NCBI GenBank assembly: GCA_003222675.1
Contig: QHWT01000093.1
Span: 1 to 44,872, forward strand
DNA length: 44,872 nt
From: Acidobacteriota bacterium
GTDB lineage: Bacteria; Acidobacteriota; Vicinamibacteria; Vicinamibacterales; 2-12-FULL-66-21
Reading direction: 5' to 3'
The position numbers and the translations under genes were made by a program. The notes under the pieces were generated by a model, which saw nothing but the letters and a program-made list of their open reading frames with translations, searched no databases and had not been told where the DNA came from. Shown one piece after another: positions 3,117-42,188 of this stretch (within the stretch, counting starts at the first letter, position 1; the number at the start of each line of letters is the position of its first letter).

Positions 3117-4474
3117 CGCGAGCTCTCGATCGGCGCCGGCTCGAGCCGCGGCACCAGCAGGTGCACGACGGTGAGCGTGACCAGATACGCAGAGGCGGCG
3201 ATCAGAAAGACCGGCACGTAGCTGCCGGTCGCCTGCAGCACGTACCCCGTGACCTTCGCGATCAGCATGCCGCCGACCGCGCCCGACATCCCGGCAAAGC
3301 CGATGACCGATCCGACCGCCTGGCGCGGGAACATATCGGACGCCAGTGTGTAGACGTTCGCGGACCATCCCTGGTGCGCGGATGCCGCGAGGCCCACGAG
3401 CAATACGGCCACCCATTCCCTGTTCGCGCCCGCGGCAAACGCGATCGGCGTGACCGCAAGCGCGCACGCCAGCATGGCGGTCTTGCGCGCGGCGTTCGTG
3501 GTCCAGCCGCGCTTCAACAGCGACGAGGACAACCAGCCGCCGCCGACGCTCCCAATGTCTGCAATCAGATAAATCACGACGAGCGGCAGCGCCATCGACT
3601 GGAGGTCGATGCCGTGTCGCCGGTGCAGGAAATCGGGAATCCAGAACAGGTACAGCCACCAGATCGGATCGGTTCCGAACTTCGCGGCCGCGACCGCCCA
3701 CGTCTGACGGTGACGAATGAGCGAGAGCCACGGGATCTCGACGGGTGGATCCGGAGGGTCGCTTCGGATGTAGGCGAGCTCCCCTCCGTTCACGCTGCGG
3801 TGCGTCGCCGGGGGTCCATAGAGCGGCCACCACAGCGCGAGCCAGAGCAAGCCGAGCGTACCCGTCGCGACAAACGCCCAGTACCATCCATAGGTGTAGG
3901 CGATCCACGGCACGATGATCGGCGTGAGCAGCGCGCCGATGTTCGTGCCCGAATTGAAGATGCCTGTCGCGAGCGCGCGTTCACGTTTGGGGAACCACTC
4001 CGCGACCGTCTTGATTGACGCCGGAAAATTTGCCGACTCGCCGATCCCGAGCGCAAACCGCGCGGCCATGAATCCCGCGACCGATCCGGAATACGTCAGG
4101 CCGAAAACGCCGAGCATCGCCGCAACGCCGGGGCCGAAGGTGGGCGCCTCCGCGTGCGCGATCGCCGCGAAACTCCACACCAGGAGCGCGAGCGCGAAGC
4201 CCAGCTTCGTGCCGATTCGATCGATCATGCGTCCCGCGAACACGAAGCCGATCGCATACGCGAGCTGGAACGCAAAGACGATATCGGCATAGTCGATCTC
4301 GCTCCAGCCGAACTGCTGCTGCAGCGTCGGTTTCAGCAGGCCAATCACCTGCCGATCGACGTAGTTGATCGTGGCCGCGAGAAACAGCAGCCCGCAAATC
4401 GTCCAGCGGAAGTACCCGGCGCGCGCCGAGACGGGCGCCGTTCCCGGTCGGTCGCGTGAAATGGGCATCGCCAT
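3113..4474 (-). CDS. MFS transporter, ExuT-like hexuronate/aldonate permease
   Basis: 453 aa with about twelve hydrophobic helices. The N-terminal INYVDRQVIG in helix 1, the RMIDRIG loop after helix 2, and ARFALGIGESANFPASIKT in the helix 4 region are signatures of the anion:cation symporter branch of the MFS (ExuT, GarP, GudP), which imports hexuronates, galactarate, glucarate or galactonate with protons. ATG 4474 follows GAGGAC on the minus strand; ATG 4468 is an alternative. It starts 9 nt after the altronate dehydratase gene and its stop overlaps the LarA-like start, so it is embedded in the operon. The exact substrate cannot be read from sequence; galacturonate or glucuronate best fits the neighbours. 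Confidence 0.88.
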   Translation of the reverse strand: MAMPISRDRPGTAPVSARAGYFRWTICGLLFLAATINYVDRQVIGLLKPTLQQQFGWSEIDYADIVFAFQLAYAIGFVFAGRMIDRIGTKLGFALALLVWSFAAIAHAEAPTFGPGVAAMLGVFGLTYSGSVAGFMAARFALGIGESANFPASIKTVAEWFPKRERALATGIFNSGTNIGALLTPIIVPWIAYTYGWYWAFVATGTLGLLWLALWWPLYGPPATHRSVNGGELAYIRSDPPDPPVEIPWLSLIRHRQTWAVAAAKFGTDPIWWLYLFWIPDFLHRRHGIDLQSMALPLVVIYLIADIGSVGGGWLSSSLLKRGWTTNAARKTAMLACALAVTPIAFAAGANREWVAVLLVGLAASAHQGWSANVYTLASDMFPRQAVGSVIGFAGMSGAVGGMLIAKVTGYVLQATGSYVPVFLIAASAYLVTLTVVHLLVPRLEPAPIESSR

Positions 4475-4483
4475 GTCGGGTCC

Positions 4484-5656
4484 TCAGATGGTGGGATTCC
4501 TTCGGTGAATCGCGAATTCCTTGTGGCCGAGGCGCTCGGTCGCCGTCAGCTTACCCGAACAGACGTCGATCACTTCCGCGAAAAGCCGGTCGCCCGCCGC
4601 GGCCAACGTCTCGCGGTCATCCAGAATGCCGCTGACGTCGAGGTCGAGGTTGTCCGCCATCGACACCGCCGTCCGCGCATTGCCGGTGATTTTTATCACG
4701 GGCGCGATGGGATTGCCCGTCGGCGTGCCAAGCCCGGTCGTAAATACGACCACCTGCGCGCCGCCGCCCACCATCCCCGTGACGGACTCCACGTCCAGAC
4801 CGGGCGTGTCCATGACCGTCAGGCCGCGGCGCGTGATGCGTCCGGAGTAGGGCACCACGTCGCTGAGCGGCGTGCGCTCGCCCCCTTTGTGCGTCGCGCC
4901 GAGCGACTTCTCTTCGATTGTCGTGAGGCCGCCGCGGATATTCCCTGGCGACGGCTGCGTCCCGCGGATGTCGAGCCCGAGCGCCCGAGCTTCCCCTTCA
5001 ACGCGCGAGATAATCTGGATCAGCTGCGCGCCCGTGTCCGGCGATGTGGCGCGCGCCGCGAGCAGGTGCTCGGCCCCCATGATTTCCGCGATCTCGCCCA
5101 GCACCGCCGTGCCGCCGGAGTCCACCAGACGGTCGGCGACGCGACCGAGCGCGGGGTTGGCCGCCAGACCGGACGTGTAATCGGACCCACCGCACTTCAC
5201 GCACAGAATCAACGACGAGATGTCGAACGCTTCGCGCTCGTCGCGCTCGAGCGCCGTCACGAGCCGCGTCGCGATCTCGGTAGCGCGCGCCGTCGCGCGC
5301 ACGGTTCCGCCTTCACTTTGAATGGCGACGATCTCCGCGGGCTTCCCCGCGCGCCGCGCCGATTCCGCGAGATACTGCGCCACCACCTGCTCGCAGCCGA
5401 GCGCGATGACGAGCACCGCGCCGACGTTGGGATGCCCGCAGTAAGCGGCCAGTGTCTCGTGCGTGATGTGCAGATCGGGACCGAGCTGACCGCACCCGGC
5501 GAGATGCGGCAGCGCGGCGCCACGCGGCGGAACCGCCGCCGCGACGCGCTCTGCGACGACAGATGCGCAGATCACGGTTGGGACGACGAGCAGGTGATTG
5601 CGGACGCCGACGCGGCCGTCGGGACGCCGGTACCCGAGAAACTGCTGATCGCTCAC
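4484..5656 (-). CDS. uxaA: Altronate dehydratase, main (C-terminal) subunit, UxaA family
   Basis: 390 aa. UxaA-family hydro-lyases dehydrate D-altronate, or related C2-C3 aldonates and aldarates, to 2-keto-3-deoxy acids using a metal centre. Family features are clear: GYRRPDGRVGVRNH at the N-terminus, AGCGQLGPD, YCGHPNVGA, ILCVKCGGSDYTSGLAANPA in the middle, PSPGNIRGGLTTIEEKSLG, and VVVFTTGLGTPTGNP near the C-terminus; the cysteines in the CGQ, CGH and CVKCGG motifs are likely metal ligands. In Proteobacteria the SAF domain is fused at the N-terminus; here it is the separate upstream gene. GTG start at 5656 overlaps the stop of that gene (GTGA) and follows GGAGGA. The product 2-keto-3-deoxygluconate would feed the kinase and aldolase encoded at 7.7-9.4 kb. 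Confidence 0.92.
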   Translation of the reverse strand: MSDQQFLGYRRPDGRVGVRNHLLVVPTVICASVVAERVAAAVPPRGAALPHLAGCGQLGPDLHITHETLAAYCGHPNVGAVLVIALGCEQVVAQYLAESARRAGKPAEIVAIQSEGGTVRATARATEIATRLVTALERDEREAFDISSLILCVKCGGSDYTSGLAANPALGRVADRLVDSGGTAVLGEIAEIMGAEHLLAARATSPDTGAQLIQIISRVEGEARALGLDIRGTQPSPGNIRGGLTTIEEKSLGATHKGGERTPLSDVVPYSGRITRRGLTVMDTPGLDVESVTGMVGGGAQVVVFTTGLGTPTGNPIAPVIKITGNARTAVSMADNLDLDVSGILDDRETLAAAGDRLFAEVIDVCSGKLTATERLGHKEFAIHRRNPTI

Positions 5657-5982
5657 GTGTCTTCCTCCGGCGGCTCCGCCAGACGCGGCGCCGCGGCGCC
5701 CGCGTGTTCGGCGCGATCGCCGCGTCCGCGGTCGCTCGCCACGTTATGTGTGTGCACATGCGCACCGGGCGCGATGTCCGCGATTGCCGTCCCGATCGCG
5801 CTGCCGTACTTGATGACCTCATCGCCCGCGCGAATCGCGCGTAAGGCAACCTTGTGTCCGCGAGGAATCGGCTCCGCAACCGTGACGGTCGCCGTCTCCA
5901 CCTCGAGCACGCGGCCCGCGTCGAGCGCGTCCAGCGCGGTCGCCACGTTATCGCGCGCGCTGATGACGATCGCAGGCTTCAC
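5653..5982 (-). CDS. UxaA-type SAF domain subunit
   Basis: 109 aa. SAF domain matching the N-terminal region of altronate/galactarate dehydratases: IPRGHKVAL, VIKYGSAIG and a histidine-rich GAHVHTHNV motif are conserved. It is the small partner of the dehydratase encoded immediately downstream, and the pair makes the aldonate dehydratase as two chains. GTG 5982 is taken as the start because it overlaps the TGA of the SDR gene and begins the SAF domain at once; the longer upstream frame is antisense to the SDR. The last ~25 residues are Ala/Arg/Glu-rich and look disordered. Confidence 0.88.
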   Translation of the reverse strand: MKPAIVISARDNVATALDALDAGRVLEVETATVTVAEPIPRGHKVALRAIRAGDEVIKYGSAIGTAIADIAPGAHVHTHNVASDRGRGDRAEHAGAAAPRLAEPPEEDT

Positions 5983-6752
5983 TGGTTCACTCCGCTCGCA
6001 AGAAAGCCGCCGTCTACGACGATCAGCTGTCCCGTGACGAACGTCGAGGCGTCCGACGCCAGATAGACCGCGGCGCCGACGAGCTCCTCGAGCCGGCCGA
6101 AGCGCTTCATCGGCGTGCGCAGCAGCAGCTCCTGCCCGCGCGGCCCCTCCAGCAGTTTCGCATTCAAATCGGTGCGGAACACGCCCGGCGCGATCGCATT
6201 CACGGTCAGGCCGTGAGGCGCCCACTCGATCGCGAGCGCGCGCGTAAGGCCGGCCACTGCGGATTTGGACGCGGTGTAGGCGCTCACTTCGTGGAGTCCG
6301 ACGAAGGACGACAACGAGGCGACGCCAATCAATCGGCCGGAACGTCGCGCGATCATTGGCGGCGCGAACGCCTTGAACGCGCGCAGCGTACCCATCAGGT
6401 TCACGTCAATGATGTTCTGCCATTCCGCCGTGTCCATCTCGAGCGTGGGGGCGCGCCGCGTGATGCCCGCCGCCGTGAGCACGACATCGATTTGCCCGAA
6501 TTCGCGAACAACCAGGTCGCGCAACTGCCCGAGCGCCGCCTCGTCCGAAACATCCGTCGGAACGCGCATCGTGCGCCGCCCGCGGCGCTCGATCTCCGCC
6601 GCAACTTCGTTGACGAGCGTCTCGCGCCGCGCGGTCGCGACGACATCGGCGCCGGCATCGGCGAGGCCGAGCGCGAGCACGCGCCCGATGCCGCTCGTGC
6701 CGCCGATCACCACCGCCGTCTTCCCCTGCAAATCGAACAGATGTGCCGTCAT
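5979..6752 (-). CDS. SDR-family NAD(P)-dependent oxidoreductase (KduD / sugar-acid dehydrogenase-like)
   Basis: 257 aa from ATG 6752. Classical short-chain dehydrogenase: nucleotide motif GGTSGIG at 17-23, AAG at 94-96 in place of NAG, catalytic S146, Y159 and K163 (YTASK). Sequence style (FDLQGKTAVVIGG at the start, VNAIAPGVFRTDLNAKLL and TGQLIVVDGGF at the end) is that of 2-deoxy-D-gluconate 3-dehydrogenase, gluconate 5-dehydrogenase and related sugar-acid enzymes. First gene of the minus-strand operon, its stop overlapping the SAF start. It probably interconverts a keto-uronate and an aldonate, for example making the substrate of the dehydratase; the precise reaction is inference. In-frame ATG 6788 would add 12 residues with no SDR character. 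Confidence 0.88.
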   Translation of the reverse strand: MTAHLFDLQGKTAVVIGGTSGIGRVLALGLADAGADVVATARRETLVNEVAAEIERRGRRTMRVPTDVSDEAALGQLRDLVVREFGQIDVVLTAAGITRRAPTLEMDTAEWQNIIDVNLMGTLRAFKAFAPPMIARRSGRLIGVASLSSFVGLHEVSAYTASKSAVAGLTRALAIEWAPHGLTVNAIAPGVFRTDLNAKLLEGPRGQELLLRTPMKRFGRLEELVGAAVYLASDASTFVTGQLIVVDGGFLASGVNQ

Positions 6753-6787
6753 CGTGATCGCTGGACGCTCCGGCGCTTCCTCGTACA

Positions 6788-6801
6788 TGATATCGATTTC
6801 A
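6788..6801. promoter_or_regulatory. LacI-type operator candidate in divergent promoter region
   Basis: TGATATCGATTTCA: 14-bp palindrome with central CG and two mismatched positions between half-sites, the geometry of LacI-family operators. It sits between the divergent SDR operon (start 6752) and IolB gene (start 6875), where a single regulator could control both. No LacI regulator gene is in the window, and the site could be chance. Confidence 0.35.
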
Positions 6802-6874
6802 TCGAGACATCGCTGGCTGCCGCCGGCGATTCGTCTGAGGACAACCCTCGCGAACTGCACCTCCAGGTGAACCG

Positions 6875-7666
6875 ATGTTGAACGAAACACTTTACAGACA
6901 GCCACGCAAAGACGGCCTGCACGTGCTCCAGCGGCGTGGTACGGGGGGCGCGCGCGAAATCACCACCTCGCGCCTCGTGCTCGCCGCCGGAAGCGAGTCA
7001 CGGTACGAGTCCTCTGACGAGGAAACGGTCGTCGTGCTTCAGCAAGGCAAAGGCACGTTTCGGGCCGGAGGACAGAACTGGACGGTCAGCCGTTCCGACG
7101 TCTTCAGCGAACGCGCGACCGCGTTGTATCTGCCGCCCGCCACACCGCTCACGGTCAGCGCCGAATCGCCGCTCGAAGCGATTCTCGTGTCGACGCCTGC
7201 CGAGAAGGGTCTGTCGCCCGCGCTCCTCACGCCAAACGAGGTGCGCGTGAACGCGCGCGGCCGCGACATCTATGCGCGCGAAGTTCACGATATCTTCGTC
7301 AACGACGCGCGCGCGAAGCGCATCATGGTCGGGGAAACATTCAATCCGCCCGGGCACTGGAGCAGCTATCCGCCGCACAAGCACGACGGCAAGGATGGCG
7401 AGCCGGTGCTCGAGGAGGTCTACTACTTCCGCATCGCGCCGTCGCAGGGCTTCGGCCAGCAGATGCTCTATACAGCCGGCGGCGAATGCGTCGCGCACGT
7501 CGTCAAGGACGGGGATGCTGTGCTGCTGCCATACGGCTACCATCCGGTCGTCTCGCCGCCGGGATACAAGCTGTACTACTTGTGGGCGATGGCGGGGGCG
7601 CAGCGGAAGCTCGCGCTCCACGAGGATCCGGATCACACGTGGGTTCATAATGCGCCGTCGGCGTGA
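6875..7666 (+). CDS. iolB: IolB-type 5-deoxy-glucuronate isomerase family protein
   Basis: 263 aa bicupin. The C-terminal half carries the IolB hallmark: GHWSSYPPHKHDG with two metal-binding histidines, EEVYYFR, GFGQQMLYT and LLPYGYHPVVSPPGYKLYYL with a third histidine. IolB isomerises 5-deoxy-glucuronate in inositol breakdown; the related fold KduI isomerises 5-keto-4-deoxyuronate in pectin/alginate breakdown. No other inositol gene is near, and the neighbours handle uronates and 2-keto-3-deoxygluconate, so it may here act on a 5-keto-4-deoxyuronate or similar open-chain uronate (inference). Divergent from the SDR operon and first of a plus-strand set; a double hairpin repeat separates it from the aldolase gene. 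Confidence 0.85.
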   Translation: MLNETLYRQPRKDGLHVLQRRGTGGAREITTSRLVLAAGSESRYESSDEETVVVLQQGKGTFRAGGQNWTVSRSDVFSERATALYLPPATPLTVSAESPLEAILVSTPAEKGLSPALLTPNEVRVNARGRDIYAREVHDIFVNDARAKRIMVGETFNPPGHWSSYPPHKHDGKDGEPVLEEVYYFRIAPSQGFGQQMLYTAGGECVAHVVKDGDAVLLPYGYHPVVSPPGYKLYYLWAMAGAQRKLALHEDPDHTWVHNAPSA

Positions 7667-7681
7667 TTAGAAACGACGTAG

Positions 7682-7726
7682 GGCGGGTCTTCAGACCCGC
7701 CGGTGAGCCGGGTCTAAAGACCCGGC
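7682..7726. repeat. Dispersed hairpin repeat A, tandem pair (copies 2 and 3)
   Basis: Two adjacent perfect 9-bp stems: GGCGGGTCT-TC-AGACCCGCC at 7682-7701 and GCCGGGTCT-AA-AGACCCGGC at 7707-7726. They fill most of the 75-nt gap between the isomerase and aldolase genes and could stabilise or attenuate the transcript. There is no T-run, so a simple intrinsic terminator is unlikely. Confidence 0.8.
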
Positions 7727-7741
7727 CTACACAATCGATAT

Positions 7742-8416
7742 ATGGCCACACCCAACGTCAGTCTCGGTTCCCGCGAAGCGGTCGTGCGCGCGATCCAGGG
7801 CTTCGGTATCGTGGCCGTCATCCGCATGCGCGATCCCGCAAAGCTGCGCGCCGTGGTTGACGCGCTCGCGGACGGCGGTGTCCGCGCGCTCGAAGTGACG
7901 ATGACGGTGCCCAATGCGGTCGCGCTGATACGCGAGCTCGCGCCCACGATGCCGGAGGGCTTTCTCCTCGGCGCTGGCACCGTGACCGATGCGGCCACGG
8001 TCGATGCGGTCGTCGACGCCGGCGCGCGCTACGTCGTCAGCCCGGTGTTCCGCCGCGAGGTCATCCGTGCGTGCCACGATCGCGGCGTCGCCGTCGCGCC
8101 CGGATGCTTCACGCCGACCGAAATCCTCGACGCGCATGATGCGGGAGCGGACATCATCAAGGTATTCCCCGCCACCGCGCTCGGCCCGCAATACATAAAG
8201 GATATCCGCGCGCCGTTGCCGCAGGTGAAGCTGATGCCGACCGGCGGCGTGACGCTGGACAATGCCGGCGACTGGATCCGCGCCGGCGCCGTGGCGGTCG
8301 GCGTGGGATCGGCGCTCCTCGATACTGCGGCGATCGAGAACGGGCGGTTCGAGGTGATCGCGGAGAACGCGCGCCGGATCGTCGCGAACGTCGCCGCTGC
8401 GAGGCCGGCGACGTGA
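7742..8416 (+). CDS. eda: 2-dehydro-3-deoxy-phosphogluconate (KDPG) aldolase
   Basis: 224 aa, class I aldolase that cleaves KDPG to pyruvate and glyceraldehyde-3-phosphate in the cytosol. Motifs: E51 in LEVTMTVP, GAGTV at 77-81, PGCFTPTEI at 120-128, Schiff-base K140 in IIKVFPA, and the phosphate-binding MPTGGV and GVGSALL near the end. ATG 7742 follows the double hairpin repeat directly without a strong ribosome site. Its TGA overlaps the GTG of the KDG kinase gene (GTGA 8413-8416), so the two are translationally coupled. It completes the pathway from the altronate dehydratase product. Confidence 0.93.
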   Translation: MATPNVSLGSREAVVRAIQGFGIVAVIRMRDPAKLRAVVDALADGGVRALEVTMTVPNAVALIRELAPTMPEGFLLGAGTVTDAATVDAVVDAGARYVVSPVFRREVIRACHDRGVAVAPGCFTPTEILDAHDAGADIIKVFPATALGPQYIKDIRAPLPQVKLMPTGGVTLDNAGDWIRAGAVAVGVGSALLDTAAIENGRFEVIAENARRIVANVAAARPAT

Positions 8417-9444
8417 CCGCAAAAGTTGTGACGTTCGGCGAGCTGATGCTTCGACTCAGCCCACCAGGGTTCGAACGGCTGCTTCAATCGCCGATGCTGG
8501 TGGCGACGTTCGGCGGCGGCGAAGCCAACGTCGCTGTCAGCCTCGCGCAGTTCGGCCTCGACAGCCACTACGTCACGCGTCTGCCTTCGCACGCGATCGG
8601 CGAGGCCGCGGTGCGGGCGCTGCGCACGGAGGGCGTGAGAACGGATTTCATCGCGCGCGGCGGCGATCGGGTCGGCATCTACTTCGCCGAGGCGGGGGCG
8701 AGCCAGCGCGCTTCGACCGTCATCTACGATCGCGCGCACTCCGCGATCGGCGAGATGCCGGCTGACGGGATCGCGTGGGACCGCGTGATGGCCGGCGCCG
8801 CCTGGTTCCACGTGACCGGTATCACCCCTGCGCTGGGTGAGAAGGCGACCGCGGCAACGAAGGCAGCGGTCGCGGCGGCCAGACGCGCCGGCGCGCGGGT
8901 CAGCGTCGATCTCAACTACCGCAAGAAGCTGTGGACGGAATCGCAGGCGCAGGCCACGATGCGGCCGCTGATGCGCGATGTCGACGTGGTGATTGCGAAC
9001 GAGGAGGACCTGCAATCGGTGCTCGGTGTGCACGTGGAAGGGGCGGACGTCACGTCAGGCACGCTCGACGTGAATGGCTTTCGTGACGCCGCCGAGCGCG
9101 TCACGCGCGAGTTCGGTCCGTCGATGGTGGCGATCACGCTGCGCGAGAGCCTCTCGGCAAGCGACAACGGCTGGAGTGCGGTGCTGTGGGATGGCGCGAC
9201 GAAGACGCTGCACCGGAGCCAGCGCTACATGGTGCGCCTCGTCGATCGCATCGGCGGCGGCGACAGCTTTGCCGCAGGCTTGATTTACGGGCTCGTGACT
9301 GGCCGGCCGCATGATGCCGCGCTACGTTTCGCCGTCGCGGCCAGCGCACTCAAGCAAACCATTCCTGGAGACTTCAACCGAGTGAGTGTGTCAGAGGTCG
9401 AGGCCTTGGCAAAGGGCGATGCCTCAGGAAGAGTGCAACGATAG
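8413..9444 (+). CDS. kdgK: 2-keto-3-deoxygluconate kinase (PfkB family)
   Basis: 343 aa. PfkB sugar kinase: TFGELMLRLSPPG at the start, FGGGEANVAVSLAQFG near 35-50, SVDLNYRKKLW in the middle, and the signature RIGGGDSFAAGL with catalytic base D284. The N-terminal FGELMLRLSPP wording is typical of KDG kinases. It phosphorylates KDG to KDPG, the substrate of the aldolase whose stop codon it overlaps (GTG start, GTGA). Convergent with sppA across a repeat-filled 176-nt gap. Confidence 0.92.
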   Translation: MTAKVVTFGELMLRLSPPGFERLLQSPMLVATFGGGEANVAVSLAQFGLDSHYVTRLPSHAIGEAAVRALRTEGVRTDFIARGGDRVGIYFAEAGASQRASTVIYDRAHSAIGEMPADGIAWDRVMAGAAWFHVTGITPALGEKATAATKAAVAAARRAGARVSVDLNYRKKLWTESQAQATMRPLMRDVDVVIANEEDLQSVLGVHVEGADVTSGTLDVNGFRDAAERVTREFGPSMVAITLRESLSASDNGWSAVLWDGATKTLHRSQRYMVRLVDRIGGGDSFAAGLIYGLVTGRPHDAALRFAVAASALKQTIPGDFNRVSVSEVEALAKGDASGRVQR

Positions 9445-32134: not shown

Positions 32135-32221
32135 TGGTGCGGAAGAGAGGATTTGAACCTCCACGACCTTGCGGCCACAAGCTCCTGAGGCTTGCGCGTC
32201 TGCCAGTTCCGCCACTTCCGC
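32135..32221 (-). tRNA. tRNA-Leu (anticodon CAG)
   Basis: 87 nt with encoded CCA. Acceptor stem GCGGAAG/CTTCCGC with discriminator A, D-arm AGTGGCGGAACTGGCAGACGC, anticodon stem CAAGC/GCTTG around loop CTCAGGA giving anticodon CAG (reads CUG), a long variable arm typical of class II tRNAs, and T-arm GGAGG-TTCAAAT-CCTC. It has its own promoter and terminator and sits just downstream of the glycan locus. Confidence 0.95.
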
Positions 32222-32324: not shown

Positions 32325-35027
32325 TCACGCGGTCGTGGAATCGGCGCGCGTGCTGCGAACGAGGAAGTAGGGCTGGCCCGACAGATCCGGACCGAATCCG
32401 GGATAGATGCCAGTCCCGCCGGGCTGGTACACTTCGAAGTAATACAAAAGAGGATAGGGCGACGAGGTGTACTCGGCCGGGATTGCACCGCGATACGCCT
32501 CATTGCCCCACGTCATGTCCGCGCTCCGCCAGCTCTGTGACTGATCGGCCTGCCGATAGCGCAGCTTGACGGTGCGTCGCTCGTCGCGGTCAAGCGCCAG
32601 CGCGATGTCGAGCGGCTTGCCAGGGTCGAAGCGTCTCGCCGGCGTATGGCGTGCGGTAAGCGACGGTCGCTGCGGCGGCGCCAGCACCGTTTTGATTGCG
32701 CGCTGGACGATTGCCGGATCGAGTGCTGCTCCGGCAGTGCCGGCTGGCTCCATCAGGCGTTTCTCCATGTCGGCCAGATCGGCGTCGATGCCGGGCAGCC
32801 GGTCGATCCAGTGGCCGCGCATGTTCGCATTCGGGCCGTACGTGATGTCGGCGACGTAAATGGCTTTTGCCTGTTCCGCCATCGCCGCCCACGCCTGACG
32901 CGCGGCGCGATACGCCTTCACAGCCTCGGTCAACGCCGCACGATCAGCGCTCTGTTCGTGCAGCGACCACAGCACCGCGCTGCGAAGCTTGTGCGCAAAG
33001 AAGGTGCCGGTCCCCGCCTGAATCGCGACGTCCGCGAGGACCCGGCGGAGTTGCGGCGCCTGCTTGTCACGCGCACTCGCCAGCGCGCGAGCGTGCTGTT
33101 CAGAAGCGGCGCGCGCCAGATCCTCGAGCCACTGCGCGACGTCGAGCGGCGTGTACTTCGCCGACGCCGTGCCGCTGACGAGCGCGTCGGCGCATTCCTC
33201 CACCGACGCGAACAACTGCGGGTCCAGCGCGCTGACGGTGCCGAACTTCCTGGGCTCCGGCGTGTCGCTGTATGGCTGCGCGCGCTTTGAATCCACGATT
33301 GGCATGTTCGTGTAGAGCTCCGGCCAGTAGCTGTTGTTCGAGGCGGACGGATCGTGCGCGGTCGTGATGATCGGCAGGATGCGGCTGGCGCTGGCGAGCG
33401 CCTTCTCCGCGGGCTCCGCCGCCGGTCCGAGCTGCTGCCGCAGGTATCTTCTCCAGCCGTCCGCATCCGTGGCGGGGTTGTAGACCAGCCGTCCCCACAC
33501 GCGATACTGATACTCGAATTTCTGCCAGTCGTACTTCGGATCGAGGGCCTTGTCGGCGTACGCATTTCGCCCGCCAGGCTTCCCGCTGCCCATGCGCCCC
33601 TTGAACGAGAGCGGCTCGAAGAGCTCCACGCCGGCGCTGCCGGCGAAGCTGAATGCACGTCCGTACGCGGCGCCCATGAGGGCATCGCCCCACAGCACAT
33701 GACGCTGCGTGCCGGGCCAGACGCGATGAAGGATGCCGAAGTTCCGGTCGTCCTTCAGATAATCGCCGTAGCCGTAACGCAGGAATCTCCGGGTCGTCGC
33801 CGCGTTCAGCGGCTCGCCGGGCCGCGCCCCCTGGCGCTCGAGCTCCCGAATCGCCGCCTGGTGATACGGCATGCCGAGATGCTCGGCCCAGAACTTCGGC
33901 ACCATGCTGACCGGGTTGCCGGTGGATAGCCCGATATCGATGTGACGCTGATCGGTCGACTTGGCGTGTTGATCGATATCGATCTTCCGGCCCGCACTCT
34001 TGATCCCGGCAAACAGGGTCTCCCAGAACTCGTACTTGCCGTCGGGAATGCCACTCTCGCCGTGCATGCGAAAGCTCAGGCCCGTAATGTTCGGACACGC
34101 TTTCAGCAGCGCGGCGAGCGCGTCGCGGCAGTACGGCGCGTGGGTTTCCGCCGTCAGACCGGAGATTCTGTAGTTCGTGTCAGGATTGGGCCATTCATAG
34201 GCGTGCGACCAGAGCGCGAGATTGAACTGCAGGCCGCGCTTGACGGTTTCGTCGCTGATGAACCGCAGCGTGTCCAGGTTGCGATCGCGCTCGGCGTCGG
34301 GGAGACCAACGGCCTTCACATCGTAGCCGGCCACCGCGAGCAGAAACGGATACGCGAAATAGAAATACGCGTCGGGCACGTTCCGCGCGCTGTTGTAGCC
34401 GAGACCAAACGTCAGATTGAAGCGGTTGTAACGGTGCGCCGCCAGCATCGAAAGATACTCGGTCCAATGCCCACGATCGTAGAACCACGCCTTGTCCTCG
34501 ATGTCGCTTTCGAAGCACCGCGCGCAGCTCCGGATCGTGTTCGCCGGCTGCTCCACGATCGCCGTCGGCACCATCAGCGGATCCACAGTGGAATCTGCAT
34601 ACGCGGCGCGGTCCGCCAATTCGAGCACGGCGTAGACGACCCCGCGCACATCGCTCCCCGACGCGAGCAGTGCCGGCCGACCGTCGATGGCACCGGGGAC
34701 GAGACAGAGCGATTCGCCTGCTGACGCCAGCGTCACGTTAGCGGCCTTGAAGATCCCCTGTGCCGCCATGCTGCCCGCAGCCGCAACGACCACAGTTCGG
34801 CTCCCGGCGCGCGCGGCATCGATCCGCGGGACCATGGTCACGGCGCTCCCCCGCCGATCGAGCGCCCTTCGCAGTTCGTCGACGGCCCAGGCCACCGGCG
34901 CCGCGGATGCGATGGGATCTGCGGGATCGATCACGATCGACACCTCCTCGGCCGCGCCTGCCAGTCTGCGGACGGCCGACACGCCCATGACAACGCCGGC
35001 ACTCTTCAGGAAGTCTCGTCGATCCAT
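32325..35027 (-). CDS. Tat-exported putative glycoside hydrolase with GH20/GH67-like N-terminal domain
   Basis: 900 aa. Twin-arginine signal DRRDFLKSAGVVMG. Residues ~28-150 look like the zincin-like alpha/beta domain that precedes the barrel of GH20 and GH67 enzymes (IVIDPADPIASAAPVAWAVD, GVVYAVLELADR). A central barrel follows (~165-480) with HRYNRFNLTFGLGY, FNLALWSHAYEWP and FRMHGESGIPDG, whose acidic residues could be catalytic, then a helical region and a C-terminal beta domain. I cannot name the CAZy family; alpha-glucuronidase-like or an uncharacterised polysaccharide enzyme are options. It starts 27 nt after the TonB-type receptor stop, so receptor and enzyme are co-transcribed, supporting action on an imported or surface glycan. 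Confidence 0.7.
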   Translation of the reverse strand: MDRRDFLKSAGVVMGVSAVRRLAGAAEEVSIVIDPADPIASAAPVAWAVDELRRALDRRGSAVTMVPRIDAARAGSRTVVVAAAGSMAAQGIFKAANVTLASAGESLCLVPGAIDGRPALLASGSDVRGVVYAVLELADRAAYADSTVDPLMVPTAIVEQPANTIRSCARCFESDIEDKAWFYDRGHWTEYLSMLAAHRYNRFNLTFGLGYNSARNVPDAYFYFAYPFLLAVAGYDVKAVGLPDAERDRNLDTLRFISDETVKRGLQFNLALWSHAYEWPNPDTNYRISGLTAETHAPYCRDALAALLKACPNITGLSFRMHGESGIPDGKYEFWETLFAGIKSAGRKIDIDQHAKSTDQRHIDIGLSTGNPVSMVPKFWAEHLGMPYHQAAIRELERQGARPGEPLNAATTRRFLRYGYGDYLKDDRNFGILHRVWPGTQRHVLWGDALMGAAYGRAFSFAGSAGVELFEPLSFKGRMGSGKPGGRNAYADKALDPKYDWQKFEYQYRVWGRLVYNPATDADGWRRYLRQQLGPAAEPAEKALASASRILPIITTAHDPSASNNSYWPELYTNMPIVDSKRAQPYSDTPEPRKFGTVSALDPQLFASVEECADALVSGTASAKYTPLDVAQWLEDLARAASEQHARALASARDKQAPQLRRVLADVAIQAGTGTFFAHKLRSAVLWSLHEQSADRAALTEAVKAYRAARQAWAAMAEQAKAIYVADITYGPNANMRGHWIDRLPGIDADLADMEKRLMEPAGTAGAALDPAIVQRAIKTVLAPPQRPSLTARHTPARRFDPGKPLDIALALDRDERRTVKLRYRQADQSQSWRSADMTWGNEAYRGAIPAEYTSSPYPLLYYFEVYQPGGTGIYPGFGPDLSGQPYFLVRSTRADSTTA

Positions 35028-35054
35028 CAGATCCTCCTCAGTTCCGAGCCCATA

Positions 35055-38000
35055 TCAGAACGTGAGCCGCGCGCCCAGCTGGATCGTACGCGGCGATCCG
35101 GCGCTGCGAATCTGGCCGAAGAACGCGGACAGGATATTCGTCTCGGGCCCGCCGTAGTTCACATGATTGAGCACGTTGAACATGTCGGCTCTCACCTGCA
35201 GCCGTGCGCGCTGCGGCATCGGGACGTTCTTGGCGAGCGAAAGATCGACGACCCGCGAAGCAGGTCCTCGGACCTGATCGGGCTTGACGATACCCGGACG
35301 CAACGTTGCGCGCGTGACGCTGCTGGTCGGCACGAGGGCGAATGCGTCGCGATTGAGATACAGGCGCGTCGACCGCCAGTCGGGCAGCACCGGGTTGCCA
35401 CCGACGAAGTCCGGGCGGCTGTTCGGAATACCAGACGGCTGCGTGATGAGCAGCCGCTCGCCCGAGCGCGACGAGAAGATCCCCGACACCTCCCAGCCCC
35501 CAACCGTGTAGCGGAGCAGCGGATGCCGGTCCCGGAATTCGGGCAGCTCGTAAATGGCGTCGGCGGTCACCCGGTGCCGCGCGTCCGACACTGTCGGACC
35601 GCGATCCGCTTCCGGATCGAAGAAGTCCTGCGTGAAGTCCTCGAAGTCACCCTGGTAATACGCGCCGACATCTCCGCCCTGCGTGGCCGTGCCCTTGCTC
35701 AACGTGTAGTGGACGTCGAATGAGAAATGATCCGCGAAGCGCTTCCGAATCGACGTCTGCAGCGCGTTGTATTCCGATGTCTGACTGTTGTCGACGTAGT
35801 AACCGCCCGGTGCGCCCAGCGATGGATTCGGCCGGGCGCCTGTCTCGCGATCGATCGCCAGACTGAAGAGGCGCTGCTGGATGAACTTTCGGCCGTCGAC
35901 GCGGATGTAGCCAATTTCCGCCATCAGTGTCCGTCCCAGCCCACGCTGGAAGTTGATCATCGTCTGCACCGAGTACGGATTCTGCAGGTTTGGATCGAGC
36001 AGGGAGAAGAAGAAGGGATGTCCGCTGGCCGCCGCTTCGCGTTCGACGATGACGCGGAGATTGTCGTTGTAGCTTGGCCACTGGAGGCCGCGCGCCAGTG
36101 CCTCGGTCCGATTCCACGAGACCCTGAACGGGACGAGCGGATGCGCGGCCCCTTGACGCACGACGGCCGGCATCTGTGGGCTATACATCACGCCAACGCC
36201 GCCGCGCACCACCGTCTCACGCTGCGAATCGAGCGTCAGTGCGAAGCCGGCGCGAGGTCCGATGTTCACCCATCCATCCGGCTCGTACGGCTTCAGCGGA
36301 TCCAGCGGCGCGCCGAAGTCCATCTTCCGCAGATCGGATGGCGCCGCGAGGTTGACGATCTGCACCGGGACGTCGGTCGTCGGCACGAGCTTGACGGTTC
36401 CGTAATAGTCGTAGCGGACACCGAGGTTCAGCACGAGACTGCTGCTGACGCGCCAGTCGTCCTGAAGGAATCCGCCGAACTCGTCCATGTGCGACTCGTG
36501 CGGTGGCGCGCCGAACGTGGGCCGGACGAGGCTTGGAATGTTGGCGAACAGATCGGTCTTGTTCTGGAACTGGAATACGGGATTTTCCGGATTGCTGCGG
36601 CTGCCGGTCTGGCGGGCCCAGCGAACGCCAGCCTTCAGGAGGTGATTGCCTGCAGGACGGCTGATCTTCTGATCGACCGTGTACGCCGTCCCGTCCATGT
36701 CCCACACTTCCGTGCCTGGCGTGCTGAACAGACCGGACACGGAGATCTGTCCCATGCGGCGTCCCCAGATGTTCGCTTCCGCGTGGTGCGGATCCATGAT
36801 TTCGAAGAACCGATCCACCCGCTCCATCTCGCTCTTGTTCCACCCGACGCGGCTTTCCGACACCCAGCGCCCGCGCGTCAGCACGAAATTGGTGGCGACG
36901 CGATCCTGTTTGTGTCTGAACTCCCGATCGTTGGAGCCATCAACGTTGATTCTCGGGATCAGCGAAAAGGGACGCATGCGCGTGTAGGTGACCGACAGAT
37001 TGCCGCCGCGGAGGATCCCAATGTCGGTCTTCGCCACGACGTGGTTCTCGCGTCGGTCGCGATTGCGCGCGCCGACGAAGAAGCCCACGTCCTCGTTGCG
37101 AGGCTCGGTCGGCAGGGGCATCGTGTCGAGCACGATCTTCGTTTCGGGGAATGGAAGCGCGGCCAGAATCTGACTGCGGAGCGCCTCGGTCGGCACGGTC
37201 CCCTGAACACGAGTGAACGCTTCCTCTCGATAGCCCTCGTAGGTTCCGAAGAAGAAGGCTTTCCGTCGGATGATGGGGCCGCCGAGAGAACCGCCGAACT
37301 GGTTGAACACAACGTGCGGCTTCGCTGTCGTCGACGGCAGGAAAATGTCGCGCGCGTTCAGCGCGTCTCCCTGATAGTTCTCCAAGAGCGATCCGTGAAA
37401 CGTGTTCGAGCCCGACTTGCTGATCAGATTGACTTGTCCGCCGACCACACCGCCGTACTCCGCCGGCATGACGCCCTTGACGAGCTGCACTTCCTGGATC
37501 GCCTCGACGCTCATGATGTCGATGTAGTTCTCGCCGCCATACTGCGAAACGCCGCGCCCTTCCGGGTTGGAGTTCGCATCCGTGCCGTCGACCGTGATGC
37601 CCGCGCCGTGCTTACCGACGCCGTTGAAGCGCACACCGCGGTTGCCGCCGGTGGGGTCGACGCCGGGCGCGAGCTGCAACAGGCCCGTGATGTTCCGGCG
37701 GCTCAACGGCAGCTCGGACGCCTGCATCTTGTTCAGTGTTTCCATCTGCTCCGAGGAGGCGGTCTTCACCAGGGCTGCGACGCCTTCAACTGTCACGTTT
37801 TCCGAGACAGCGCCGAGCTCCAGCTCGAAGCTCTCGCGCTCGGTCTGGCCCGAGGTGAGCTGAAGTCCCCGACGAACGTGTGCTTTGAACCCGGGAAGTT
37901 CGATCTTGACCTCGTACCTCCCGACAGGCAGGGCCGAGAGGGCGAACTCCCCCGAACCGTTCGTGGTCGTGGTCCTGACCGCGCCAGTCTCCTCGTGGGT

Positions 38001-38150
38001 CATCGTGACGGTGGCGCCAGGCAGCATCGATCCGCTCGGGTCGCGAACGAGACCATAGAGCGTTGCGGTGGTGACCTGCGCGACCGCCGGTGTGACTGAA
38101 AGCAGAGTGGTGATCGCGAGGAGCAGACCTTGAACGGTGGTACGGGTCAT
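35055..38150 (-). CDS. TonB-dependent-receptor-like outer membrane protein with carboxypeptidase-regulatory-like domain (2)
   Basis: 1031 aa. Signal peptide ~1-25 (LLLAITTLLSVTPAVAQ), CarboxypepD_reg-like domain ~28-110 (ATLYGLVRDPSGSMLPGAT, GEFALSALPVGRYEVKIELP), plug ~115-260 (VRFNGVGKHGAGITVDGTD, SVEAIQEVQLVKGVMPAEYG, GQVNLISKSGSNTFHGS) and a beta-barrel ending in GARLTF with terminal phenylalanine. ATG 38150 has GAGGTGA upstream. It lies 84 nt after the GHL6-like gene and 27 nt before the Tat-exported hydrolase gene, the middle of a three-gene glycan operon. No SusD-like lipoprotein accompanies it, the normal situation for the acidobacterial version of such loci. Confidence 0.92.
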   Translation of the reverse strand: MTRTTVQGLLLAITTLLSVTPAVAQVTTATLYGLVRDPSGSMLPGATVTMTHEETGAVRTTTTNGSGEFALSALPVGRYEVKIELPGFKAHVRRGLQLTSGQTERESFELELGAVSENVTVEGVAALVKTASSEQMETLNKMQASELPLSRRNITGLLQLAPGVDPTGGNRGVRFNGVGKHGAGITVDGTDANSNPEGRGVSQYGGENYIDIMSVEAIQEVQLVKGVMPAEYGGVVGGQVNLISKSGSNTFHGSLLENYQGDALNARDIFLPSTTAKPHVVFNQFGGSLGGPIIRRKAFFFGTYEGYREEAFTRVQGTVPTEALRSQILAALPFPETKIVLDTMPLPTEPRNEDVGFFVGARNRDRRENHVVAKTDIGILRGGNLSVTYTRMRPFSLIPRINVDGSNDREFRHKQDRVATNFVLTRGRWVSESRVGWNKSEMERVDRFFEIMDPHHAEANIWGRRMGQISVSGLFSTPGTEVWDMDGTAYTVDQKISRPAGNHLLKAGVRWARQTGSRSNPENPVFQFQNKTDLFANIPSLVRPTFGAPPHESHMDEFGGFLQDDWRVSSSLVLNLGVRYDYYGTVKLVPTTDVPVQIVNLAAPSDLRKMDFGAPLDPLKPYEPDGWVNIGPRAGFALTLDSQRETVVRGGVGVMYSPQMPAVVRQGAAHPLVPFRVSWNRTEALARGLQWPSYNDNLRVIVEREAAASGHPFFFSLLDPNLQNPYSVQTMINFQRGLGRTLMAEIGYIRVDGRKFIQQRLFSLAIDRETGARPNPSLGAPGGYYVDNSQTSEYNALQTSIRKRFADHFSFDVHYTLSKGTATQGGDVGAYYQGDFEDFTQDFFDPEADRGPTVSDARHRVTADAIYELPEFRDRHPLLRYTVGGWEVSGIFSSRSGERLLITQPSGIPNSRPDFVGGNPVLPDWRSTRLYLNRDAFALVPTSSVTRATLRPGIVKPDQVRGPASRVVDLSLAKNVPMPQRARLQVRADMFNVLNHVNYGGPETNILSAFFGQIRSAGSPRTIQLGARLTF

Positions 38151-38234
38151 AGGTCACCTCATTTAGAACTACGCTCGCGTGGGACCCCTTCAGATTCCGG
38201 GCCCCTTTCAGATTCCCCACGCACTGACCGATCG

Positions 38235-40553
38235 TCATCCGATGACGAGTACCTCGTGGTCGAGGATGGACTCGATCTCGATGACCGCAATTCCGCCGTC
38301 GATCGCGACCGGCCGATCGATTGCGGATACCAGGAGCCGGGCGGTGCGGCCCGTCACACGCTGCGGCAGACGCAGCGCGACCTTGAACGGGCCAACCTTG
38401 ATCAATTCATCGACGGGCGCGCGCCAGGTCGCCTCGCTCGTCAGATTCACGATGTGGAGAATCATCCGCGCTGATTGCTCGTACAAATGGCAATCGACAA
38501 GGCCCGGCCCCTCGACGCGGAGTGTCAGACTGCGATCGGCGGCCCAGCGAACGATGTTCGCCAGGAGCACGAAGTGATCCGGCAGATGCTCCCGCGCGTA
38601 CCGGCGATCGATATCTGCCGGGATGTACGCCACGCGCGCGCTGCCATGTTGCGAGAGGATCAAGCCGGGAATGTCGCTCGTCGGCTGACGCATCCACGAT
38701 GTTTCGGGCGGATAAGTCGGGAACGCGGGCACGAACGTGAGCGGCACCGTCGCGGCGGCGTCCACCTTCAGCGGCGAGAGCGTTCCCCCGAACGGCAGAA
38801 TGTCCGTCTCGTCGAAACCTTGCAGCACCGCATGACGTTCGCCGGTTGGTGCGGGCTCGTCTCCTGCCTTCGGACCGTCGACGCGTGCGCGCAGCTCGGG
38901 ACGGAGCCTCAGATATGTATGACCGCTCGGACCTGGCGCAAACGCGCCGCGCTCCTCACCTGATCCTCGCCGCGAGCTGGCGTCCTGCAGGCGCGGCGTT
39001 TCGCCGATTCGATGACAGGCGAACAGATCAGCAAGCGCGAAGCCGGATCGCGGGTCGCCCCATTCGTCGTACAGACCGGTGTGACCGGTTGCGACGAGTG
39101 ACCCTCCGTGCTCGACGAAGCGTCCGATCGACGCCGCCTGGGCATTCGAGAGCGCGCCGACGTTGGGGAGGATCAGCACGGACAGCGCGCCCCGCTGCTG
39201 CTCGATGTCGTCGATGTGAACCGGCAAGTACGGAATCCGCGCGCGGACCAGCGCGTGCATGAAGCCGGTGTATGGCGCATCCACGCGATCCGCTGCGTCG
39301 TCGCGGCCGAAGAAATCCGTATTCCGCTGCGACCACACGACACCCACGGTCGCGACCGGCTGCCGATTGATCAAGTACTGCTCGTTGGCCTTCCACCACC
39401 GCATGACTGGCTCGGCGGTGTGGTACATCCGGCGGTCTTCGTGATAGGCACCCACGTGATGCCACCACGGCTGGATGCCGCCAGCGACACCGGCGATCAT
39501 CCACATGCGCGCTTCGGCTGCCGGCTTGCTGGCGACGCGGTAGTACCCCGGGCCGGACTGGTACATCGCCATCGATTCGGGCGCAAGCTTGTCCCAGCCC
39601 AGCACGCCGTGTACACGCTTGCCGGTGTCGCCATTCTGTTGAAACCCGGTGTCGTCATCGCGCCGCTGATGATCGAGCATCATGATGTCGGCGCGCCGGC
39701 AGATCTCTTTCAGATCGCGAAACGACCGCGCCTCGGCCGTGATCGATCCGCTGTTCATGCCCGACCAGATGCAGTCGGGCCCGCCGGCCTCGCGCGTGAT
39801 GCGGTTGTTCACCTCCCACACCTCGATCCGCCGCGCGTAGCTCCACATGATCCATTGGCGATATACGGGATCGTCCCACGCGGCCGTACGAGGCAGTGCC
39901 TTTGCCGTCTTCGCGCGGAACGTGCGGTCGCAGTTTGCACAGAAGCAGATGCTCTCGCGGCCGAGGCCTGCCCAGCTGTTGTCGGTGAATCCGTCGGGAT
40001 GGGAGCGCTCGATGATCTCGCGCAGCACGCCAGGGAGGTATTCGTCGTAGTAGGCGCTGTTGATGCACGCGATGTACTTGTCGGCCGCCCGGTACGGGTT
40101 GCCTTCGCTGTCGCGGGCGAACCAGTCGGGATGCGCCTTGAAGAAGTCCTCGGCGGCGCGGTTGGAATCCATGCGCGCCATCACGAACAATCCGTCATCG
40201 TGCGCGGCTTTCGTGAGCTCGCCGAACAGATCGCGCCCGCCGAGAAACTCCGCGCGATGGTGTAGCGGGAACTTGCTGGGATAATAGGCCACGATCCCGC
40301 CGGCGTTGATGATGACCGCCTGTGTCTGGGTCCGCTTCCAGTACTCACGCCACCACGCGATGTCGTAACGAACAGGATCCTTCTCCGTGATGTTGGTCTG
40401 ACCCCAGAGGTATGCGCGCCGGTACCACGGCGTGTGCGGCGGAGGCGCGGAAGACTGACCGTCCGCGCGTCGGCCGGCGCCGACCAACACTGCGCTCGCC
40501 AGGCTGTTACGCAGGAAGCTGCGGCGAGTCATACCGCCTGTCACCGCAGACAT
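38235..40553 (-). CDS. Tat-exported GHL6/GH42-like putative glycoside hydrolase
   Basis: 772 aa from ATG 40553 (AAAGGA upstream); the longer frame extends antisense into the divergent gene's leader. Twin-arginine signal MTRRSFLRNSLASAVLVGAG. Residues ~60-400 form a TIM barrel of the hypothetical glycosyl hydrolase 6 type: WWREYWKRTQTQAVIINAGG, LFVMARMDSN, HPDWFARDSEGNPY, DGFTDNSWAGLGRESICF, CANCDRTFR. Next comes a GH42 trimerisation-like Rossmann domain (VLILPNVGALSNAQAASI, FVEHGGSLVATGHTGLYDEW) and a C-terminal beta domain. Substrate unknown; relatives occur in fucose- or galactose-directed loci. First gene of the minus-strand glycan operon, divergent from a third receptor gene. Confidence 0.75.
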   Translation of the reverse strand: MSAVTGGMTRRSFLRNSLASAVLVGAGRRADGQSSAPPPHTPWYRRAYLWGQTNITEKDPVRYDIAWWREYWKRTQTQAVIINAGGIVAYYPSKFPLHHRAEFLGGRDLFGELTKAAHDDGLFVMARMDSNRAAEDFFKAHPDWFARDSEGNPYRAADKYIACINSAYYDEYLPGVLREIIERSHPDGFTDNSWAGLGRESICFCANCDRTFRAKTAKALPRTAAWDDPVYRQWIMWSYARRIEVWEVNNRITREAGGPDCIWSGMNSGSITAEARSFRDLKEICRRADIMMLDHQRRDDDTGFQQNGDTGKRVHGVLGWDKLAPESMAMYQSGPGYYRVASKPAAEARMWMIAGVAGGIQPWWHHVGAYHEDRRMYHTAEPVMRWWKANEQYLINRQPVATVGVVWSQRNTDFFGRDDAADRVDAPYTGFMHALVRARIPYLPVHIDDIEQQRGALSVLILPNVGALSNAQAASIGRFVEHGGSLVATGHTGLYDEWGDPRSGFALADLFACHRIGETPRLQDASSRRGSGEERGAFAPGPSGHTYLRLRPELRARVDGPKAGDEPAPTGERHAVLQGFDETDILPFGGTLSPLKVDAAATVPLTFVPAFPTYPPETSWMRQPTSDIPGLILSQHGSARVAYIPADIDRRYAREHLPDHFVLLANIVRWAADRSLTLRVEGPGLVDCHLYEQSARMILHIVNLTSEATWRAPVDELIKVGPFKVALRLPQRVTGRTARLLVSAIDRPVAIDGGIAVIEIESILDHEVLVIG

Positions 40554-40695
40554 GCCGATGTCCTTTGCCAATCGATCAGCGCGTGCGATCGATGGTGAAT
40601 TCCCTGACGGGGTCCCGTCGCCCGCATCGCATTGCGACGGATTCAAACGCTGTCCGCGCCGCGTGTCAAGCCACGATTCAGGTCGTCTCACGATG

Positions 40696-40710
40696 TGAAA
40701 CCCGCTTTCA
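40696..40710. promoter_or_regulatory. KdgR-like operator candidate between divergent glycan genes
   Basis: TGAAA-CCCGC-TTTCA, a 15-bp inverted repeat with perfect 5-bp half-sites. Enterobacterial KdgR (IclR family, senses KDG) binds TGAAACA-N-TGTTTCA, the same spacing. A perfect -35-like TTGACA lies at 40717-40722 toward the plus-strand receptor gene, but no good -10 follows. No IclR gene is in the window. Confidence 0.35.
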
Positions 40711-40778
40711 TAGTTCTTGACAACCGTGCAGCCGCGGGCGTAACGAAAGAAGCGTACACGCCTGTGGTGGAGGTGAGC

Positions 40779-42188
40779 ATGTACGTTCGCGTACCTCTGG
40801 CGATCGTAGTCATCAGCTGCTGCTGCGCTTCAGTTGGAGAGGCGCAATTCGATACCGGCCACGTGGCTGGGTTCGTTCGTGACTCGTTCAACGCAGCCGT
40901 GCCCGGTGCGACGGTCACGGTAGAGAACGAAGGGAACCGGGACCGCCGCGTGGCGATCACCGATGCCACCGGCTTCTACGCGGTTCCCGATCTGCCGGTC
41001 GGCAGCTATACCGTGAGCATCGAATTGCAGGGATTCAAACGGTTCGTCAAAACCGCTCTCAAACTCAGCGCCGCGGCGCAGGTGAGCGTGGACGCGCAGC
41101 TCGAGGTCGGCAGCATGGAGGAAACCGTCGAAGTACGAGCCTCCACCGCCACGGTGCAGACAGCGACCGCTCAGGTCGCGCGAACGGTCGATTCCCGTCA
41201 GATCCAGGACCTCACGCTGAATGGACGTAATCCGATCTTCCTCGCACTTCTGAAACCCGGCGTCCGCGGCGGCTTGATGAGCAGCTTCTCGCCCGACAGC
41301 GTCACGAACGGCAGCTTCAGCATCAATGGCGCGCGCGACGATGAGTATGTCGTGATGGTTGACGGCGCCATCGCCACCCGGACGCGCTCGTCGGGTTCCA
41401 TGCTCGGTGCGCAGGACGTCGAGACGGTCGAGGAAGTGCAAATCCTCACCGCTAACTATCGTGCAGAATACGGCAGGTCGTCTGCGGGTCAGATCCGCTT
41501 CGTCACTAAGAGCGGCACGCGCGACTTCCACGGCGATGCGCTCGAGAACTACCGCAACGCCTCCCTCGACGCCAACAGCTGGACCCGAAACAGCAGCGGC
41601 GACCTGAGGCTCTCGAATGGGCCGGACCCGTTCACCTTCCATCAGTTCGGGTTCCACCTCGGCGGGCCCGTGATCATTCCGCACAAGTTCAACACGGACC
41701 GCAGCAAGATGTTTTTCTTCTGGGGCGAGGAATGGATCCGGCGGCGCGACACGCTGACGAATGTCGGAACGGTGCCCACGGCCGCGATGCGCAACGGCGA
41801 CTTCAGCGAGCTGCTCAATCCGTCGAACCGATTCTTCGGCCGCGTCCGCACGATCGTCGATCCCGCCACGGGCCAGCCATTTCCGGGAAACGTCATTCCG
41901 CAGAATCGCATCAGTGCGAACGGACAGGCGCTGCTGAACGCCTATCCATTGCCCACGGCCGGATTTCAGCAGGGCACTGCCAACTGGATCGGGACGCAGT
42001 CGAGCTGGTCGTACTTGCGCAAGGACACAGTGAAGCTCGACTACCTCATCACGCCGAACCAACGGCTCACCGTTCGCGGCACGCACATCCCCTGGCACTT
42101 CAACGAGCCATTCGTCGGTCAATTCGACCGCGCGCAGTGGTGGTGGTCGCGTCCGAACCGTACGGGAGCGATCAGTCTCTCTCGATGA
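40779..42188 (+). pseudogene. TonB-dependent-receptor-like protein (3), N-terminal part; gene broken at ~42180
   Basis: ATG 40779 has an excellent ribosome site (GGAGGTGA). Signal peptide ~1-22 (VPLAIVVISCCCASVGEAQ), CarboxypepD_reg-like domain (GHVAGFVRDSFNAAVPGAT, GFYAVPDLPVGSYTVSIELQ), plug (FSINGARDDEYVVMVDGA, VEEVQILTANYRAEYGRSSA) and the first barrel strands (HLGGPVIIPHKFN, RSKMFFFWGEEWIRRRD). It ends suddenly at RTGAISLSR-stop where relatives continue through ~15-20 more residues into the sequence found in the next frame. The junction fits an internal deletion of length 1 mod 3. If real, the truncated product lacks most of its barrel and would not insert in the outer membrane. Confidence 0.85.

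Follow-up and report, generated by a model that had tools for sequence, protein, structure and literature searches.

A distant sister of GH138 with a twin-arginine motif, encoded beside a TonB-type receptor and a GHL6 protein in an Acidobacteriota bacterium: a possible locus for trimming uronate-containing oligosaccharides

The window analysed here, the whole stretch of 44,872 nucleotides of contig QHWT01000093.1 from an Acidobacteriota bacterium (GenBank assembly GCA_003222675.1), contains minus-strand genes for enzyme B, TonB-type receptor T1 and enzyme A, faced by a plus-strand gene for a second receptor, T2. Enzyme A (32325..35027, minus strand, 900 aa) is a distant sister of GH138, the glycoside hydrolase (GH) family of rhamnogalacturonan II (RG-II) alpha-galacturonidases known from RG-II breakdown by gut Bacteroides. 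The locus probably imports acidic fragments of plant-cell-wall sugars and clips sugar acids off them. The favoured reading, with a probability of about 0.45, is that A is a periplasmic exo-alpha-uronidase acting on pectic oligosaccharides rich in rhamnose and uronate within an uptake-and-trimming cassette, the choice of a pectic substrate being a judgement and not proof. A TonB-type receptor together with exported trimming enzymes is an already known kind of arrangement. The apparent novelty lies in a sister family of GH138 that has no name so far, conserves a twin-arginine signal and is in some cases paired with a GHL6 protein lacking the catalytic residues that would be expected. The arrangement of the four genes had been described in an original prediction made from the sequence alone, and the open reading frames (ORFs) and coordinates bear it out. 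The genome, here called G000, comprises 152 contigs totalling 7.16 Mb, with a completeness of 99.9% and a contamination of 3.91%.

No Pfam hydrolase family matched A, and the GH67 and GH20 families were absent up to an E value of 1. The sole NCBIfam match was to the alpha-galacturonidase model NF049878, at 40 bits against a cut-off of 1300 bits, and a comparison of the single sequence with the GH138 enzyme BPa0997 gave an E value of only 0.035-0.037. A profile of 78 sequences (alignment A3, consisting of 77 of the 83 full-length relatives and the window's A) matched BPa0997 with an E value of 8.7e-13. Comparison by hhalign with five GH138-type sequences, four of which exceed the NF049878 cut-off, gave a probability of 99.9 and an E value of 4.5e-33 over 640 columns, with the C-terminal part of A lying outside the match. 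The AlphaFold2 model of A had a mean predicted local distance difference test score (pLDDT) of 92.6, and the fold nearest to it was GH138 using either Foldseek or VIA-align. The alignment with 6HZG by VIA-align had a Z score of 24.7, a root mean square deviation of 3.3 and 625 aligned residues at 17% identity, and A has the same domain order as GH138 (BPa0997, PDB 6HZE/6HZF/6HZG; BT0997) over residues 27-763. Lower Z scores were found for GH20 (15.7), GH67 (15.4, with Foldseek E values down to 6.7e-13), GH84 (15.1) and GH115 (14.8). The GH138 catalytic-site glutamates align with E324 and E382 of A, which are kept in 100/100 and 99/100 aligned sequences, respectively. E361 of BPa0997 is the mutated residue according to the PDB molecule name of one entry, and the second catalytic-site glutamate we take to be E294.

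The original prediction that A is GH20- or GH67-like has to be given up, as the Pfam scan and the fold ranking rule it out and the profile, Foldseek, VIA-align and hhalign all place A by GH138. The accompanying view that the enzymes belong to no characterised family holds for A at curated cut-offs but not at the level of profiles and fold, which put A next to GH138. No clear assignment to a known family with an unrelated substrate was obtained. As a whole, the observations in the original prediction are partly confirmed and their interpretation is partly supported.

The relatives of A were collected by tblastn in genome_contigs, giving 284 sequences from genomes labelled Acidobacteria, Bacteroidota, Verrucomicrobia/Opitutae, Planctomycetota and others; the best 80 of the 284 supplied the loci (L numbers) studied below. 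In a FastTree tree of 100 sequences, which included the five GH138-type sequences, a main clade (75), a clade termed A2 (12) and GH138 (5) were separate, each with a local support of 1.0, and a group of shorter sequences (8) had a support of only 0.59. The window's A falls in a supported clade distinct from that of GH138. In this tree GH138 has sister clades in several phyla by label: two of them, main and A2, are supported, whereas support for the third, of shorter sequences, is weak.

That A could be a plain GH138 RG-II alpha-galacturonidase is suggested by GH138 being its best homologue and best fold and by the two aligned glutamates. The BT0997 member of that family is reported to be an alpha-galacturonidase whose target is an alpha-1,2-GalA (galacturonic acid) linkage (PMC7939467). 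However, A differs from GH138 in its low identity, in scoring far under the NCBIfam cut-off and poorly as a single sequence, in its separate clade and in its twin-arginine motif. A GH138 exceeding the NCBIfam cut-off accompanies an A-type gene in 4 of 41 genomes searched (38 from the 80 loci plus G000 and two further genomes of its phylum, G001 and G046), thus the two kinds of protein coexist. Plain GH138 identity is therefore very improbable. The family of A appears widespread and seemingly uncharacterised, and a literature search of partial coverage, by title and start of abstract, gave no description of the clade. Whether A founds a new GH family of Tat-exported exo-alpha-uronidases, present in several phyla and working in series with a B that hydrolyses in a manner unlike GH151 and GH42, is a tentative suggestion that could easily prove wrong. 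An activity for A would annotate hundreds of genes.

Six Spirosoma-type loci (L024, L026, L029, L041, L043 and L077) have SusD together with two to four tandem GH138-like paralogues of the main, A2 and short types. These loci also encode a propeller-like protein, and some of them have genes for lactate utilisation. A PD40-type propeller protein (L012:10186-11226) lies just before A in G046 and has homologues in 9/80 A loci.

Enzyme B (38235..40553, minus strand, 772 aa) lies in an open frame of 38235-40691 with its likely start at the ATG at 40553. B had originally been described as GHL6/GH42-like and is better called GHL6/GH151-like: Pfam gave GHL6 over its cut-off at 2e-18 and the GH42 middle domain, GH42M, under its cut-off at 9.5e-4, the latter being over the cut-off in the relative of B in G318. 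A profile of 19 B sequences matched the GH151 fucosidase ALfuk2 (6TVK) with an E value of 8.3e-24, GH42 enzymes being weaker. A further enzyme now placed in GH151 is the soil-metagenome fucosidase Mfuc3 (PMC4723247, PMC10154630), and it is described as having GHL6 and a GH42 middle domain (PMC4723247), as found in B. The nucleophile of ALfuk2 is D154, the catalytic Asp on strand beta-4 (PMC10154630). The residue of B aligned with this nucleophile is Asn192 in 19/19 sequences, though this is a sequence alignment only, beside a gap and with an inferred numbering offset of 29 residues. No invariant Asp was found between residues 180 and 202 of B in the 19 sequences. B resembles the GH42 beta-galactosidases in its middle domain and in the cysteines of a C-x-C-x2-C pattern; C163, C203, C205 and C208 are invariant in 19/19 sequences and resemble the GH42 zinc site. 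The acid/base position of GH42 is Asn-Glu. In contrast, Asn192 in the window's B is followed by Ser193, and no invariant Glu is found there in the 19 sequences. The lack of the GH151 and GH42 catalytic residues suggests that B may use another catalytic arrangement or may not be a classical glycosidase. The invariant D294, E347 and D373 are candidate catalytic residues. An AlphaFold2 model of B made from 5 sequences had a pLDDT of 52.5.

Genes of A and B type adjoin or are near each other in nine genomes, one of them that of the window. They are directly adjacent in L027, L047 and L075, separated by one ORF in L048 and divergent, about 170 bp apart, in G318 and G354. In G046 a receptor and a propeller protein lie between them, and in G001 an A2-type protein (28% identical) takes the place of A beside B. 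The labels are Planctomycetota for L027 and L075, Limisphaerales for L047 and Bacteroidales for L048, while the G genomes belong to the phylum of the window. In a sample of 297 genomes from this phylum, 14 had A, 19 had B and 9 had the two together, for which p is 3.6e-9 if kinship is ignored; these 9 genomes fall in 6 families. Thus A and B belong together, if loosely.

The twin-arginine motifs DRRDFLKSAG and TRRSFLRN occur in the window's two enzymes, A and B, and the Pfam TAT_signal model matches A only under its cut-off. With ORF starts set mechanically, the motif (RR-x-F-L) was present in 69/83 full-length relatives of A and in 8/8 B-type ORFs. The 14 relatives of A in which it was not seen comprise 9 of the A2 clade and 5 of the main clade, the latter with an uncertain start or at a contig edge; one A2 sequence (L043) does carry it. 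The earlier claim that both enzymes travel by the twin-arginine translocation (Tat) route is therefore consistent with a motif on each, and both are predicted to be exported by this route. Of the further idea that they fold before export, perhaps with a cofactor, the cofactor part suits only B, where the cysteines would fit a metal site, and nothing found points to one in A. On the same contig, beyond the window, UxuA-type (mannonate-dehydratase) and enolase-superfamily proteins have twin-arginine-like N-termini (L017:4646-5785 and L016:11057-12427). Such proteins are usually thought to be cytoplasmic, and these are possibly exported.

The presence of hexuronate genes in the window, also part of the original prediction, was established by domain scans, which place them at 3113..9444 on both strands. 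A major facilitator superfamily (MFS) transporter, an altronate/galactarate dehydratase-type protein and a short-chain dehydrogenase/reductase (SDR) are on the minus strand; KduI, a KDPG/KHG aldolase and a PfkB kinase are on the plus strand. Relatives of A are found beside UxaC and an MFS transporter (L067), beside a PL22-like protein (L079) and near GH106 (L027) or GH106 and an FGGY kinase (G154). GH28 is present in 7/14 A genomes against 41/297 in the sample (p 0.001, kinship ignored). The homology to GH138, the two conserved glutamates and neighbours such as UxaC, the PL22-like protein, GH106 and GH67 all point towards the uronate-containing polymer proposed originally as substrate.

In the favoured reading fragments would cross the outer membrane through T1, and also through T2 should its frame be intact in vivo. 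Both enzymes would fold in the cytoplasm and then pass by Tat to the periplasm, where A would take an alpha-linked uronic acid off the non-reducing end, with E324 and E382 serving as their GH138 equivalents do. The target of B, as a GHL6/GH151-like protein, would be the residue next to it, which may be a deoxyhexose. The freed hexuronate would pass to the products of the KduI, SDR, dehydratase, kinase and aldolase genes at 3-10 kb, and an IclR-type regulator bound at a palindrome at 40685-40701 would control the divergent promoters. Assigning these activities would give a testable enzyme pair, A and B, and a testable operator. It would also help to explain how genomes that have neither GH28 nor GH67, such as G000, might subsist on the uronic acids of plant walls.

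The 17-bp palindrome, GTCTCACGATGTGAAAC (40685..40701, no strand), lies between B and T2 and is the proposed IclR-type operator. The pattern GTYTCACNNNGTGARAC has a single exact copy in G000 and another in G001, both upstream of B, and its exact form is absent from G046. A promoter-like TTGACA-N17-TTGAAT at 40641..40669 on the minus strand, upstream of B, has the same hexamers and spacing in G001, on the B side of the palindrome (both read by eye), and the palindrome of G001 has an IclR-type gene next to it. A control with the backwards pattern, allowing up to one mismatch, hit one site in G000, none in G001 and two in G046, so that one-mismatch sites of GTYTCACNNNGTGARAC carry no weight; one such second site in G000 was, by eye, inside a phosphoesterase-like ORF. 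The two IclR-type genes of G046 are preceded by two copies that differ from the pattern at two positions, but at least two such copies also arose in 13/200 shuffles. A search of the 80 genome_contigs loci (1,304,880 bases) that allowed up to one mismatch gave no site. The palindrome overlaps TGAAA-N5-TTTCA (40696..40710, plus strand), which is probably the 'KdgR-like site' of the original prediction. This element was rejected as the operator: it has one copy in the window and is absent from the loci of G001 and G046 when up to one mismatch is allowed. What survives of that proposal is another palindrome, the element shared with G001, and the IclR-type genes at the loci of G001 and G046.

Several observations weigh against the favoured reading. 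The window's palindrome has no IclR gene in its vicinity, and the only IclR match of G000 is 32% identical and on another contig. B is near A in only 4/80 genome_contigs loci and, among the 60 nearest relatives of the window's genome, an A-type match was found only in G000, G001 and G046, thus A often works without B. In G000 there is no GH28 at an E value of 1e-20 and no GH67 at 1e-30, hence neither of these two kinds of backbone enzyme to match, and the bacterium may depend on fragments that other organisms release. GH67 occurs in 4/14 A genomes against 29/297 (p 0.037, kinship ignored), and some neighbours of A are of xylan type: GH67, GH43 and a PF00756 esterase in L097, GH39 and GH43 in L023, and GH54 and GH51 in L053. 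Lastly, position H354 of A is His in 75/75 main-clade sequences but Arg in 5/5 GH138 and 12/12 A2 sequences, which means that the specificity of A may have shifted.

The xylan-type neighbours and the GH67 counts favour the main rival, in which A would be an alpha-glucuronidase working on fragments of glucuronoarabinoxylan, equivalent in function to GH67 and GH115, in a cassette for xylan oligosaccharides. PF00756 esterases, found in 5/98 and 5/95 of the neighbour proteins scanned, agree with this, as does the relationship of A in fold to GH67 and GH115. The neighbour scan covered 277 or 278 of 401 selected proteins in tallies of 98 + 85 + 95, with the 25 commonest families of each; some of those left unscanned looked antisense or short. 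Nevertheless, GH67 and GH115 are clearly more distant from A than GH138 is in fold and sequence, Pfam GH67 models do not match A, G000 has no GH67 and, in seed-family counts by phmmer, each such enzyme family is seen in only 1 to 7 of the 80 loci. This rival is accordingly doubtful, though it deserves to be kept in mind. It is unlikely, and a little more so, that A uses a GH138 scaffold on a non-uronide, for example an amino or neutral sugar, or on a glycan from bacteria or fungi. The fold shared with GH20 and GH84, H354 in place of the GH138 Arg and the diversity of the neighbourhoods speak for it: most A loci have no clear pectin or xylan signal or other clear glycan pathway, the remainder being mixed. 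Against it, GH138 stands 9 Z units over GH20, and uronate genes are found in the same window and beside A in L067.

Both receptors have CarboxypepD_reg, Plug and outer-membrane barrel (PF25183, OMP_b-brl_4) domains by Pfam. T1 (35055..38150, minus strand, 1031 aa) is separated from A by 27 bp and from B by 84 bp and is 74% identical to its counterpart in G001 and 71% to that in G046. T2, at about 40776-44131 on the plus strand with the start at 40776 read by eye, had been thought to end at 42188. The frame in fact changes there, near 42.18 kb (42150-42200), and the receptor continues to 44131. An unbroken homologue exists in G001 to which the two parts of T2 are 82% and 81% identical, so the break reflects either a recent lesion or a mistake in the assembly. 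The locus was correctly described as SusD-less, since Pfam scans of the 8 proteins in this part of the window and of 20 from the rest showed no SusD family. With its TonB-type receptors beside glycan enzymes it resembles the polysaccharide utilisation loci of SusC/SusD type, and relatives of A do sit in SusD loci in 10 of the 80 cases, but here the receptor has no SusD partner. Elsewhere in G000 one SusD-type region, which may be genuine or contamination, exceeds the Pfam cut-off (contig C105, L150), and the piece following it contains a stop.

Among the hexuronate genes, the altronate/galactarate dehydratase-type protein (4484-6225) is apparently split, a separate ORF carrying the SAF domain, and a LarA-type protein (lactate racemase N-terminal) at 1836-3908 lies beside them. 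Directly downstream of A, on the same strand, is a tRNA-Leu (CAG) gene at 32135-32221.

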